NCBI GenBank assembly: GCA_017451025.1
Contig: JAFSSM010000011.1
Coordinates: 1-64,000, forward strand
Source: Synergistaceae bacterium
GTDB taxonomy: Bacteria; Synergistota; Synergistia; Synergistales; Aminobacteriaceae
Length of the DNA stretch: 64,000 nt
Reading direction: 5' to 3'
Shown here: one piece after another, positions 2 through 2,262 of the stretch
How positions within the stretch are numbered: the stretch's first letter is position 1
Layout: each line of letters opens with the position of its first letter
The notes under the pieces: generated by a model
Seen by the model: the letters and a program-made list of their open reading frames with translations, nothing else
The model's database searches: none
What the model was told of the DNA's origin: nothing
Program-made: the position numbers and the translations under genes

Positions 2-580
2 ATGCTTGAGGAGTTCAGGAGGCATTATGATGATGAGGGACTGACGCATGAGGATGTGTTCTGCTATGTGTACGGAGTGCTGAGTTCGCGGGAGTATGCA
101 TTGCGTTTCGGGAACGACACGAGGAGGGTGCTTGCGCGTGTGCCGATGGTGAAGGGGCGAGAGAGGTTCAGGAGGTTCTGTGAGGCCGGGCGTGAGCTAG
201 GGAGACTGCATGTGAATTATGAGTCTGCGGAGATATACCCGTTGACGCTTGAGGGCAATGCTGACGGCCTGACCATCAGGAAGATGCGGATAGTTGAACG
301 CGGAGGCGAGAAGGTTATTCGGTACAACGATGGGCTGACGGTCGGGGGGATTCCTGCTGAGGCGTGGGAGTATGTGGTGAATGGGAGGAGTGCGCTTGGG
401 TGGATAGTGGAGAGGTATCGTGATGAGGTTGATGTGAAGAGCGGGCTGCGGAATGACTGTAATGCGTGGGGACGGGAGCGGGGGAATGAGGGGTATGTGC
501 TTGACTTGATTGGTCGGGTAGTGAGTGTGAGTGTGAGGACGATGGAAATTTTGGGGGATATGCCGGAGTTAGGAGTGTGA
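2..580 (+). CDS. Type ISP restriction-modification enzyme, C-terminal part (5' end outside window)
   Basis: These 192 residues are the end of a gene that enters from the left, so no true start can be given; the first ATG at position 2 is only where the window opens. The segment FCYVYGVLSSREYALRFGND near residues 20-39, followed by an R-V-P motif, resembles the C-terminal specificity region of type ISP (LlaBIII-like) restriction-modification proteins. That family joins nuclease, helicase, methyltransferase and DNA-recognition parts in one chain of about 1500 residues; only the recognition end is visible here. The stop codon overlaps an extended -10 box of the small module that follows. Family assignment is from remembered similarity; activity cannot be judged. 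Confidence 0.75.
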   Translation: MLEEFRRHYDDEGLTHEDVFCYVYGVLSSREYALRFGNDTRRVLARVPMVKGRERFRRFCEAGRELGRLHVNYESAEIYPLTLEGNADGLTIRKMRIVERGGEKVIRYNDGLTVGGIPAEAWEYVVNGRSALGWIVERYRDEVDVKSGLRNDCNAWGRERGNEGYVLDLIGRVVSVSVRTMEILGDMPELGV

Positions 581-586
581 TATAAT
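578..586 (+). promoter_or_regulatory. Extended -10 promoter facing small gene 1
   Basis: TGA-TATAAT is a perfect extended -10 element, and it overlaps the stop codon of the restriction-modification gene. A transcript from about 593 would begin with a hairpin (GGGGGAAGC... pairing with ...CCCCC) and run into the 3' end of the opposing small gene. No good -35 box is visible. Confidence 0.5.
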
Positions 587-652
587 CTGAGAAGTGGGGG
601 AAGCGAAGGAAGCTAGCTGAACCCCCGTTATGAGCTAAAAGCTCCACCAGTA

Positions 653-790
653 CTAGTTGCAGAACCTATCCCACAGTAGTAGGACAAGTCTTACGAACCA
701 GTAGAGAGTAGCGAGTTTGTGAGTCAACCCGGTCAGGCGATCACCTCGCTGCTTTTTGCTGGTGTGCTTGTGTCCCTTTTTGTGAGCCAT
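653..790 (-). CDS. Small basic membrane peptide, copy 1 (45 aa)
   Basis: The reading frame starts with ATG at 790, six bases behind an AGGTG ribosome site, and ends at TAG. The product has a Lys/His-rich N-terminus (MAHKKGHKHTSKKQ), a central Leu-rich segment and the ending LLLWDRFCN. It aligns along its whole length with the products at 1000-1143 and 1357-1500: shared positions include KKG, T, Q, D, L, the hydrophobic run and LWDRF. Conservation across three diverged copies, each with a ribosome site and promoter, is the reason to call it a gene despite its size. Function is not known; a type I toxin-like role is inferred only from size, charge, membrane segment and the facing promoter. Confidence 0.65.
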   Translation of the reverse strand: MAHKKGHKHTSKKQRGDRLTGLTHKLATLYWFVRLVLLLWDRFCN

Positions 791-873
791 AGCGTTCACC
801 TGCCAATCTGCAGGAATGATCCCCGTGGACTTGAAGAGTCCCTGCGCCTCTCTGGGGCTTCCTCTGAGTGAGT

Positions 874-882
874 ATTATAGCA
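874..882 (-). promoter_or_regulatory. Extended -10 promoter of small gene 1
   Basis: Read on the minus strand this is TGC-TATAAT, about 85 bases upstream of the ATG at 790. The same nonamer, preceded by AAACTTTTTC, recurs at 1226-1234 and 1582-1590 upstream of the other two copies. Confidence 0.6.
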
Positions 883-937
883 GAAAAAGTTTTTGGACTT
901 GATTTTGCGGTGGTATGCCTGAGTTAGGAGTGTGATG

Positions 938-946
938 TGGTAGAAT
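938..946 (+). promoter_or_regulatory. Extended -10 promoter facing small gene 2
   Basis: TGG-TAGAAT sits in unit 2 at the place of the TGA-TATAAT box in unit 1. The predicted transcript starts near 953 with a G-rich stretch that can pair with itself (GGGG at about 950 and 963, CCCC at 974) and runs antisense to the end of the gene at 1000-1143. Confidence 0.45.
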
Positions 947-999
947 ATAGGGGCAAGGTCGAGGGGAAACCCTACCCCAAAAAGTGGAACAATTAGCTG

Positions 1000-1143
1000 T
1001 TAGCGACTAAATCTGTCCCAGAGGAAACAGGCCAGACGTACGATAACAGATGCGAGTGAGGCGAGATAATACACTGTGCGGAGTGCGTCCCGCCTCTGTT
1101 TTTTGTCGGTGCGCTTGCGGCCTTTGCCTTTCTTGGCAGCCAC
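1000..1143 (-). CDS. Small basic membrane peptide, copy 2 (47 aa)
   Basis: A GTG at 1143 lies five bases behind a GGGGGTG ribosome site, and the homology with copy 1 begins exactly there; the same frame stays open upstream to an ATG at 1308, but that extra part has no match in copy 1 and crosses the promoter. The product begins VAAKKGKGRKRTDKKQ, continues with a 19-residue hydrophobic segment containing one Arg, and ends FLWDRFSR. Calculated by eye it is strongly basic. Past the stop, the minus-strand transcript meets a G-run/C-run hairpin near 960-980 that could act as terminator. Confidence 0.65.
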   Translation of the reverse strand: MAAKKGKGRKRTDKKQRRDALRTVYYLASLASVIVRLACFLWDRFSR

Positions 1144-1225
1144 GCTAACACCCCCTTTCCACAGGGCGGATCTCCTTTTGGTGCACGAGCCCCTGTAACT
1201 CACTCGGAGCCCCTCGTTGCGGAGT

Positions 1226-1234
1226 ATTATAGCA
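1226..1234 (-). promoter_or_regulatory. Extended -10 promoter of small gene 2
   Basis: TGC-TATAAT on the minus strand, 83 bases upstream of the GTG at 1143. The leader between them contains two direct AGGGGCTC repeats near 1190-1212, also present in copy 3. Confidence 0.6.
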
Positions 1235-1289
1235 GAAAAAGTTTGCGGGATTGATTTTGCGGTGGTATGTCTGAGTTGGGAGTGTGATG

Positions 1290-1298
1290 TGGTAGAAT
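1290..1298 (+). promoter_or_regulatory. Extended -10 promoter facing small gene 3
   Basis: TGG-TAGAAT in unit 3, in a block nearly identical to unit 2 (about 1252-1322 against 900-970). Its transcript would oppose the gene at 1357-1500. Confidence 0.45.
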
Positions 1299-1356
1299 AT
1301 AGGGGCAAGGTCGAGGGGAAACCGTGCTCCCTGAAACCGACGATAAAGTCAGTTAT

Positions 1357-1500
1357 TTATTTGTGAAACCTGTCCCACAAGAAGAAGAACAGCTTCACGA
1401 CCGATAGAGCAGCAGAGGCGAGGTAACTCAATAGGCGGAGAGTATCTCGCTTCTGTGTTGTCTTGGTGTGCTTGCGGCCTTTGCCTTTCTTGGCAGCCAC
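1357..1500 (-). CDS. Small basic membrane peptide, copy 3 (47 aa)
   Basis: GTG start at 1500 behind GGGGGTG, as in copy 2. The product begins VAAKKGKGRKHTKTTQ, has a hydrophobic run (LLSYLASAALSVVKLFFFLW) and ends DRFHK. N-terminal 10 residues are identical to copy 2, while the middle has drifted but keeps its hydrophobic character, a pattern expected when protein rather than DNA sequence is selected. An in-frame ATG at 1560 would give 67 residues but is less likely for the reason given for copy 2. Confidence 0.65.
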   Translation of the reverse strand: MAAKKGKGRKHTKTTQKRDTLRLLSYLASAALSVVKLFFFLWDRFHK

Positions 1501-1581
1501 ACTAACACCCCCTTTCCACAGGGCGGATCTCCGTTTGAAGCACGAGCCCCTGTAACTCACTCGGAGCCCCTCGTGCTGAGT

Positions 1582-1590
1582 ATTATAGCA
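1582..1590 (-). promoter_or_regulatory. Extended -10 promoter of small gene 3
   Basis: TGC-TATAAT on the minus strand, about 82 bases upstream of the GTG at 1500, in the same context as the other two copies. Confidence 0.6.
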
Positions 1591-1694
1591 GAAAAAGTTT
1601 GCGGCCTAATTTTTCCGGGCTAAGGCTGAAGCAATGAAATTTCTGAGATACTGAGGAAGTTTTTCAACTACTTTTACAACTACAAAAAGTTCAC

Positions 1695-2192
1695 CTAAAT
1701 ACTGAGTACATCTATCTTTACAGGCCATGCTTCCGAAATTAAACTTGCAATCATTTCACGCACACCCTTTCCGTTTTCAGGGTGCCTCCACCCGTCAGGC
1801 AGTATCTCGCTCAGCGGCACAAGCACAAACATTCTCTCGGGTATCCTTATGTGCGGAATATCCAGCTCTTCAGAGTGGTACACCACATCGTCAATCAGCA
1901 GTATATCTATGTCGATTTTCCGTTCTCCCCACCGAACCGACGGAACACGCCCAAGCTCCGCTTCAAACCCCTTCACTTTACGCAAAAGCTCCACAGGCTC
2001 AACCCCGCCGTCAACTTCAACCTTAACGCAGGCGTTCAGATAATCAGGCTGTGGAACTCCTCCCCACGCAGGAGTCTCGTACACACTGCTAACTGCCTCA
2101 ATCTTGCCGAGCATCGCCAGTTTTGCGAGCGCATCACGCAAGTTCCGTAACCTGTCGCCAAGATTTGACCCTAAGCCAAAATATATATGCAT
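1695..2192 (-). CDS. folK: HPPK: 2-amino-4-hydroxy-6-hydroxymethyldihydropteridine diphosphokinase
   Basis: The enzyme transfers pyrophosphate from ATP to 6-hydroxymethyl-dihydropterin in folate synthesis. The chain begins MHIYFGLGSNLGDR, the usual HPPK start, and carries the family signature around RWGERKIDIDILL (substrate and Mg binding Asp pair). At 165 residues it has the normal length. ATG at 2192 is chosen because AAGGAGTG lies nine bases upstream and the family N-terminus starts here; an upstream ATG at 2240 would add 16 unmatched residues. It is divergent from treB with about 70 bases between them. No other folate gene is nearby. Confidence 0.93.
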   Translation of the reverse strand: MHIYFGLGSNLGDRLRNLRDALAKLAMLGKIEAVSSVYETPAWGGVPQPDYLNACVKVEVDGGVEPVELLRKVKGFEAELGRVPSVRWGERKIDIDILLIDDVVYHSEELDIPHIRIPERMFVLVPLSEILPDGWRHPENGKGVREMIASLISEAWPVKIDVLSI

Positions 2193-2262
2193 AGTATCTA
2201 TCACTCCTTGTATAATTTGCATTATCCCAAAACAATACAATTATTACACGGAGGCGAAATTC

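Follow-up and report, generated by a model that had tools for sequence, protein, structure and literature searches.

At the level of sequence, type I toxin-antitoxin systems are recognized by two features: a small peptide, usually of under 60 residues and with one hydrophobic helix, and an antisense RNA gene that has its own promoter and terminator and whose product is complementary to the toxin mRNA; in function, overproduction of the peptide is toxic and the antisense RNA counteracts it. In the bsrG/SR4, bsrE/SR5 and txpA/RatA systems of B. subtilis, an antisense RNA of 163-222 nt pairs over ~110-120 nt with the 3' end of the mRNA (PMC7430163). Control through the fold of the mRNA itself has been described for hok/sok, whose full-length mRNA is stable, folds with the involvement of its 3' end, and is translated only after 3' processing, and for aapA/IsoA of Helicobacter and its relatives, in which long-distance pairing between the 5' and 3' ends of the full-length toxin mRNA is conserved (PMC6733600). 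According to a 2025 paper, which also faults search methods that are bound to known families, no type I system had been identified outside Proteobacteria, Firmicutes and Tenericutes before the cyanobacterial msoT1/msoA1 system of Microcystis, tested in E. coli (PMC12390103). In line with that statement, no report of a type I system in Synergistota was found in the literature, the coverage of which was incomplete.

The stretch of DNA analysed here (the window) comprises positions 1 to 64,000 of the forward strand of contig JAFSSM010000011.1, from the Synergistaceae bacterium assembly GCA_017451025.1, and carries close to its start three modules, each with a minus-strand peptide gene faced by a plus-strand promoter (Table 1). 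As in the three B. subtilis systems, these modules associate a small hydrophobic peptide with a predicted convergent antisense RNA of similar size on the 3' end of the mRNA; unlike those systems, to which no sequence relation was detected, they display a closed mRNA, a pseudoknot leader and a peptide charged at its N-terminus. With aapA/IsoA they share multi-copy chromosomal modules, an antisense RNA (here predicted) and 5'-3' long-distance mRNA pairing, but the peptides and the phylum differ, the leader pseudoknot is additional, and whereas the 3' end of aapA masks the ribosome site, the partner of the 3' loop in the Synergistaceae mRNA is the extreme 5' end rather than the Shine-Dalgarno (SD) sequence. 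A closed full-length mRNA is also what links the modules to hok/sok, 3' processing being inferred in the present case. The RNA sok targets the 5' leader and the overlapping reading frame of hok, whereas the putative Synergistaceae antisense RNA covers the 3' half of its mRNA, and no homology between the two systems was detected. The likeness to msoT1/msoA1, compared via the paper only and not by sequence, lies in an occurrence outside Proteobacteria, Firmicutes and Tenericutes. By analogy with these systems, the family is one that combines a convergent 3' overlap of the bsrG/SR4 kind with a 5'-3' mRNA closure of the hok and aapA kind, and adds a leader pseudoknot.

The peptide genes and their family

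A preliminary description of this DNA had reported three minus-strand reading frames of 45-47 residues with a LWDRF ending behind a type ISP restriction gene. All three frames were recovered, with the start codons of copies 2 and 3 corrected to GTG, and the restriction gene was confirmed as such by its match to Type_ISP_C; of this gene only the C-terminal part is visible, as the first base of the window is also base 1 of the contig. The three peptides have 17 invariant positions in common, those of LWDRF among them, all end in LWDRFxx, and are the only copies in their genome.

Table 1. Positions of the features of the three modules and their neighbours, numbered from the first base of the window.
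Feature	Position	Strand	Remarks
Type ISP restriction-modification gene, 3' end	2-580	+	truncated by contig start; Type_ISP_C, E 5e-44
Antisense extended -10, module 1	578-586	+	TGATATAAT; its TGA is the ISP gene stop codon
Predicted antisense RNA 1	592-757	+	about 165 nt; terminator stem 707-715/745-753 and T-run in ORF; ends inferred from -10 and hairpin
mRNA 1 3' hairpin loop GCTTCCT	607-613	-	pairs with own 5' end AGGAAGC (863-857)
Peptide gene 1	653-790	-	45 aa, MAHKKG...LWDRFCN, ATG start
Pseudoknot leader, mRNA 1	788-866	-	leader model R1, 52 bits; family covariation
Sense extended -10, module 1	874-882	-	TGCTATAAT
Antisense extended -10, module 2	938-946	+	TGGTAGAAT
Predicted antisense RNA 2	952-1104	+	about 153 nt; terminator stem 1058-1063/1091-1096 and TGTTTTTT; ends inferred
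mRNA 2 3' hairpin loop CCCCTCG	960-966	-	pairs with own 5' end CGAGGGG (1216-1210)
Peptide gene 2	1000-1143	-	47 aa, MAAKKGKGRKRT...LWDRFSR, GTG start
Pseudoknot leader, mRNA 2	1141-1218	-	leader model R1, 68 bits
Sense extended -10, module 2	1226-1234	-	TGCTATAAT
Antisense extended -10, module 3	1290-1298	+	TGGTAGAAT
Predicted antisense RNA 3	1304-1464	+	about 160 nt; stem 1414-1422/1446-1454, weak T-run; ends inferred
mRNA 3 3' hairpin loop CCCCTCG	1312-1318	-	pairs with own 5' end CGAGGGG (1573-1567)
Peptide gene 3	1357-1500	-	47 aa, MAAKKGKGRKHT...LWDRFHK, GTG start
Pseudoknot leader, mRNA 3	1498-1575	-	leader model R1, 69 bits
Sense extended -10, module 3	1582-1590	-	TGCTATAAT
folK	1695-2240		next gene after modules

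The existence of homologues with a conserved frame, on which the preliminary description had in part staked its reading, was verified by searching 188 genomes of the phylum with a 30-row profile (E <= 0.01), which gave matches in 39 of the 43 searched genomes of the genus and, elsewhere in the family, in 11 genomes from six other genera; outside the family a single marginal match was obtained (E 0.006). A single-peptide query gave some match in 50 of 101 genomes at E <= 10. Copy number varies from 0 to 9 per genome, several genomes having 5 to 9 matches, and the homologues, which often stand in tandem arrays, occupy scattered sites and include decayed copies. The named records with matches are Synergistaceae or Synergistales MAGs, one of them labelled Fretibacterium, and nearly all of the matching MAGs are of goat, sheep or red deer origin. 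No peptide homologue was present in phage, plasmid and IMG/VR collections, and an origin of the modules from a phage, plasmid or virus was rejected on this basis; the genome and viral collections were scanned with a tighter alignment than the diverse family alignment. For the analyses below, 85 modules were extracted from 61 stretches of about 40 genomes, and all data stem from assembled genomes, mostly MAGs.

Membership in a known peptide family was rejected, since searches of Pfam, NCBIfam and PHROGs gave no significant family match and nothing significant was found in the PDB (best E 0.095). The same four libraries revealed no homology to aapA, hok, Fst/Ldr, TxpA or other named toxin families; this comparison involved library searches and no direct pairwise comparison, and some small toxins may lack models in these collections. 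Ka/Ks has a median of 0.44 and stays below 1 in 99% of pairs; the peptides are, by this measure, under purifying selection, with the caveat that antisense constraints act on silent sites too.

The family consensus, in peptides that range from 40 to 53 residues, consists of a basic N-terminus and KKQRRD, followed by AAALYW-RL-LLLWDRF. The best 19-residue stretch has a median hydropathy of 1.87, and 75% of the 85 peptides exceed a KD value of 1.6; peptide 1, at 1.31, falls under the usual membrane cut-off, and its single-sequence model consists of one helix at residues 17-44 (mean pLDDT 74). The peptide feature of type I systems is therefore met, with the low hydropathy of peptide 1 as a reservation. 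Mean net charge is +8.5 on the N-terminal side of the best hydrophobic stretch and +0.5 on its C-terminal side, whereas the reviewed type I toxins carry their positive charge mostly in the C-terminal part (PMC8309996); the unusual N-terminal charge remarked upon earlier thus holds for the family.

At seven loci a divergent peptide subgroup was observed which lacks LWDRF and ends in RIWTIIKNW or similar, and which retains the common leader, promoters and 3' hairpin.

Promoters, mRNA structure and the predicted antisense RNA

Nearly all modules are built alike. Upstream of the start codon, at a distance of 80-99 nt (about 90 nt), the sequence TGnTAnAAT is present in 68 of 85 modules; its counterpart on the opposite strand, 50-99 nt past the stop codon, is present in 73 of 77. 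In shuffled sequence it occurs at 0.03 per 300 nt, which places the observed positions far above chance, and the promoter layout is the same in most modules of other genera. The six extended -10 boxes that had been proposed for the window, one sense and one facing box per gene, were all located.

The 5' UTR, of ~75 nt, is conserved across modules and contains an H-type pseudoknot made up of the helices S0 (5 bp), S1 (6 bp) and S2 (5 bp), of which S2 is located in the S1 loop and pairs immediately upstream of the SD. When arms were swapped among 46 leaders of less than 85% identity, S0, S1 and S2 gave z values of 5.6, 7.0 and 6.5, as compared with -2.1, 1.9 and -0.1 for wrong pairs of arms. Furthermore, in 27 leader sequences from several genera, double changes were found at 12 of 16 pairs, and 83.8% of cells were paired, versus 76% after shuffling and at most 56% after sliding. 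A covariance model of the leader (R1), which covers S0 and S1 only, gave the three leaders of the window scores of 52-69 bits, as against 15 for the match that came next, and its matches track the peptide genes across the family. Another cargo behind the leader was considered and rejected, because those leader-only matches that were inspected were relatives, broken relatives or cut copies. Neither leader nor antisense RNA has a match in Rfam at the gathering threshold, or any plausible one at relaxed E, and a known RNA family was rejected accordingly.

Downstream of the stop codon, most modules display a hairpin of the AGGGG...CCCCT type followed by ATTTTATCA, the complement of the antisense -10. 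The antisense extended -10 overlaps the mRNA terminator, and a single short sequence can in this manner act on both strands, as mRNA U-tract and as antisense -10; in the window the U-tract is weak, in module 1 most of all. The apical loop of the 3' hairpin is complementary to the 5'-terminal bases of the same mRNA, with 5' end/loop sequences that differ by class (GAGGGAG/CTCCCTC, AGGAAGC/GCTTCCT, CGAGGGG/CCCCTCG, GAAGAGG/CCTCTTC and GACGGAA/TTCCGTC). Own arms pair better than swapped arms (18.7 vs 15.9, z = 7.5), with seven other pairings lying between -2.3 and 2.3, so that the 5'-3' long-distance mRNA pairing known from aapA/IsoA is met here. Pairing of the SD region with the 3' hairpin was unsupported in the swap test (z -0.9), and masking of the SD by the mRNA 3' end, in the style of aapA, was rejected. 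The swap and shuffle tests ignore phylogeny; control pairs from the same sequences are near zero.

A blind scan of 1507 pairs of sub-windows along the mRNA returned as its top signals the ORF terminator stem, S0, S1, S2, the 3' hairpin and the closure, as well as a start-codon hairpin (z 5.3), and no pair fell under -4. Family-wide, the scan also detected a second stem with covariation (z 7.5) towards the 3' end of the ORF; it lies about 12-54 nt upstream of the stop codon, at 653-710 of the window for example, and may be a middle hairpin of the antisense RNA.

Across the family, the predicted antisense RNAs measure 152-181 nt (median 162), and the mRNAs about 285 nt, all ends being inferred. 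The preliminary description expected plus-strand RNA up to ~660, 1010 and 1365; these spans were too short, and the predicted ends, at ~757, 1104 and 1464, are well inside the ORFs. There the antisense strand presents a GC-rich stem and a T-rich run that ends near codons 11-16; the loop of the stem, at about 22-33 nt, is long by the standards of intrinsic terminators. Between modules the stem varies on both sides (CAGCGGC/GCCGCTG, GAGGCG/CGCCTC, CGGCGAGGA/TCCTCGCCG). A perfect 7-bp stem with a T-rich run occurs in 53 of 76 ORFs, as opposed to 3-10 and 3-12 in two synonymous-shuffle nulls, and the amino acids alone are therefore insufficient as an explanation. The T-rich flank sits on the antisense side, with 5.3 T per 8 nt versus 3.6 on the sense strand. 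The core of the stem favours neither strand (8 GU vs 11 AC), and strand assignment by GU/AC asymmetry was dropped as evidence; the pair beside the T-run has a strong GU excess (38 vs 2), which may be a composition effect. Whether AAA codons are favoured over AAG at the T-run was not clear, only position -3 leaning that way (14 to 2). Judged by sequence alone, in the absence of RNA data, the modules thus possess the antisense component of a type I system, a gene equipped with promoter and terminator whose product would be complementary to the mRNA.

Proposed mechanism and alternative explanations

Since the modules encode a conserved coding family without a known relative, bear convergent promoters and an antisense terminator constrained beyond the codons, and show covariation in the structures of the predicted mRNAs, each unit is likely to be a type I toxin-antitoxin-like module of a new family. 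Coding conservation, promoter positions and covarying structures are established by comparison, whereas transcription, toxicity, silencing and 3' trimming are inferred. The undescribed type I-like family that had been postulated earlier is in agreement with every sequence-level test that was run, antisense transcription and toxicity remaining unproven. Multiple copies, tandem arrangement and decayed copies, as are common among toxin-antitoxin loci, speak for this reading; against it stand the lack of RNA or growth data, the long loop of the ORF stem and the absence of strand bias in the stem core, and at the level of single modules the weak T-run of module 3, the weak mRNA U-tract of module 1 and the hydropathy of peptide 1.

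In the proposed mechanism, a sigma-70 extended -10 promoter would drive synthesis of an mRNA of ~285 nt encoding a peptide of 40-53 residues with a strongly basic N-terminus and a single hydrophobic helix; this peptide would probably be inserted into the inner membrane and inhibit growth if overproduced. The facing extended -10, over the mRNA terminator, would direct an antisense RNA of ~160 nt, with its 5' end about 60 nt beyond the stop codon and its 3' end at the terminator that the peptide codons contain, around KKQRR; this RNA would consequently show full complementarity to the 3' UTR and to the greater part of the ORF, and by pairing with the 3' half of the mRNA could block translation, lead to RNase III decay, or both. 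The full-length mRNA is predicted to adopt a closed fold, in which its 5' end is paired to the 3' terminator loop, a pseudoknot directly precedes the ribosome site and the start codon is covered by a hairpin; the closed fold and this hairpin would keep new mRNA silent until 3' trimming. With closure and antisense pairing combined, the peptide would be made only once the antisense RNA is exhausted or the 3' end trimmed. The pseudoknot could serve as a ribosome block, a folding checkpoint, a stability element or a sensor.

Toxicity is not readable from sequence, and the pseudoknot leader could sense a signal, which leaves some room for an unlikely alternative, in which the RNA anatomy is unchanged but no toxin-antitoxin system is involved: the gene would encode a small membrane protein without toxicity, such as one that regulates a transporter or an envelope enzyme, and a cis-antisense RNA would set its level. 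However, 0 to 9 copies per genome, tandem arrays, scattered sites and decay better suit a dispensable module than a housekeeping regulator, and precedents for a closed 5'-3' fold exist among toxin mRNAs (PMC6733600). A role as cationic antimicrobial peptides or bacteriocins directed against other bacteria, with production timed by the antisense RNA, is very improbable for these peptides. A strongly basic N-terminus followed by a hydrophobic helix would fit such a role, as would the rumen, a dense and competitive habitat; nevertheless, the hydrophobic, anchored form suits action in the producer cell, and the commonest neighbours among the 92 flanking ORFs scanned, a scan confined to nearest neighbours, are folK (11), AMP-binding enzymes (10) and restriction genes (type ISP 8, MmeI-like 3), with no export or immunity family among these commonest neighbours. 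That the ORF stem acts in the mRNA, through ribosome slowing or protection, and that no antisense RNA exists, the facing -10 (TGATAAAAT) being the complement of the terminator U-tract read backwards, can claim the lack of GU bias toward the antisense strand in the core stem pairs, but is scarcely tenable in view of the conservation of a full extended -10 with a TG that a U-tract does not need, of the position of this box 5-30 nt past the hairpin in many copies, and of the T-rich run behind the ORF stem, which is found mainly on the antisense side.

If the type I reading is true, type I systems extend to Synergistota, via a family absent from all libraries searched and with a conserved pseudoknot leader that is absent from Rfam. 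Paired extended -10 boxes, an ORF-internal antisense terminator and 5'-3' covariation would provide a homology-free recipe for finding such loci, and the evolution of 5'-3' closure and of antisense specificity could be tested on one compact mRNA/antisense pair, of which about 150 natural variants exist, a sufficient number.

Genomic context, possible duplication, and decay

A link of the modules to defence is possible. In several species a recurrent site was observed, at six loci, where the modules lie between a gene of 162-167 codons (folK where scanned) and one of ~1200-1440 codons (ISP-like where scanned).

In copies 2 and 3 of the window, a remnant of ~30 nt from the 3' end of the ISP gene is present (repeat families D3 and D4; sites 571-586, 921-936 and 1273-1288). 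Because of these remnants, and because the ISP stop codon lies in the first antisense -10, the sequence suggests that the array arose by tandem duplication from the ISP-proximal copy.

In three young tandem pairs (window copies 2 and 3, and the pairs at loci L033 and L041), the leader and N-terminal codons are 91-100% identical, and the part of the ORF covered by the antisense RNA is only 66-67% identical, a pattern that looks as if antisense specificity were diversifying. A speculative proposal, which we consider doubtful, is that the arrays are self-diversifying, with leader and N-terminal codons kept and the antisense-covered part replaced, such that each antitoxin would be specific for its own toxin and the pseudoknot leader would be a sensor for mRNA opening.

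Frameshifted copies with an intact leader were observed as the second copies of L033 and L042 and at two further loci; since these copies retain the leader, the modules decay through loss of the peptide frame.
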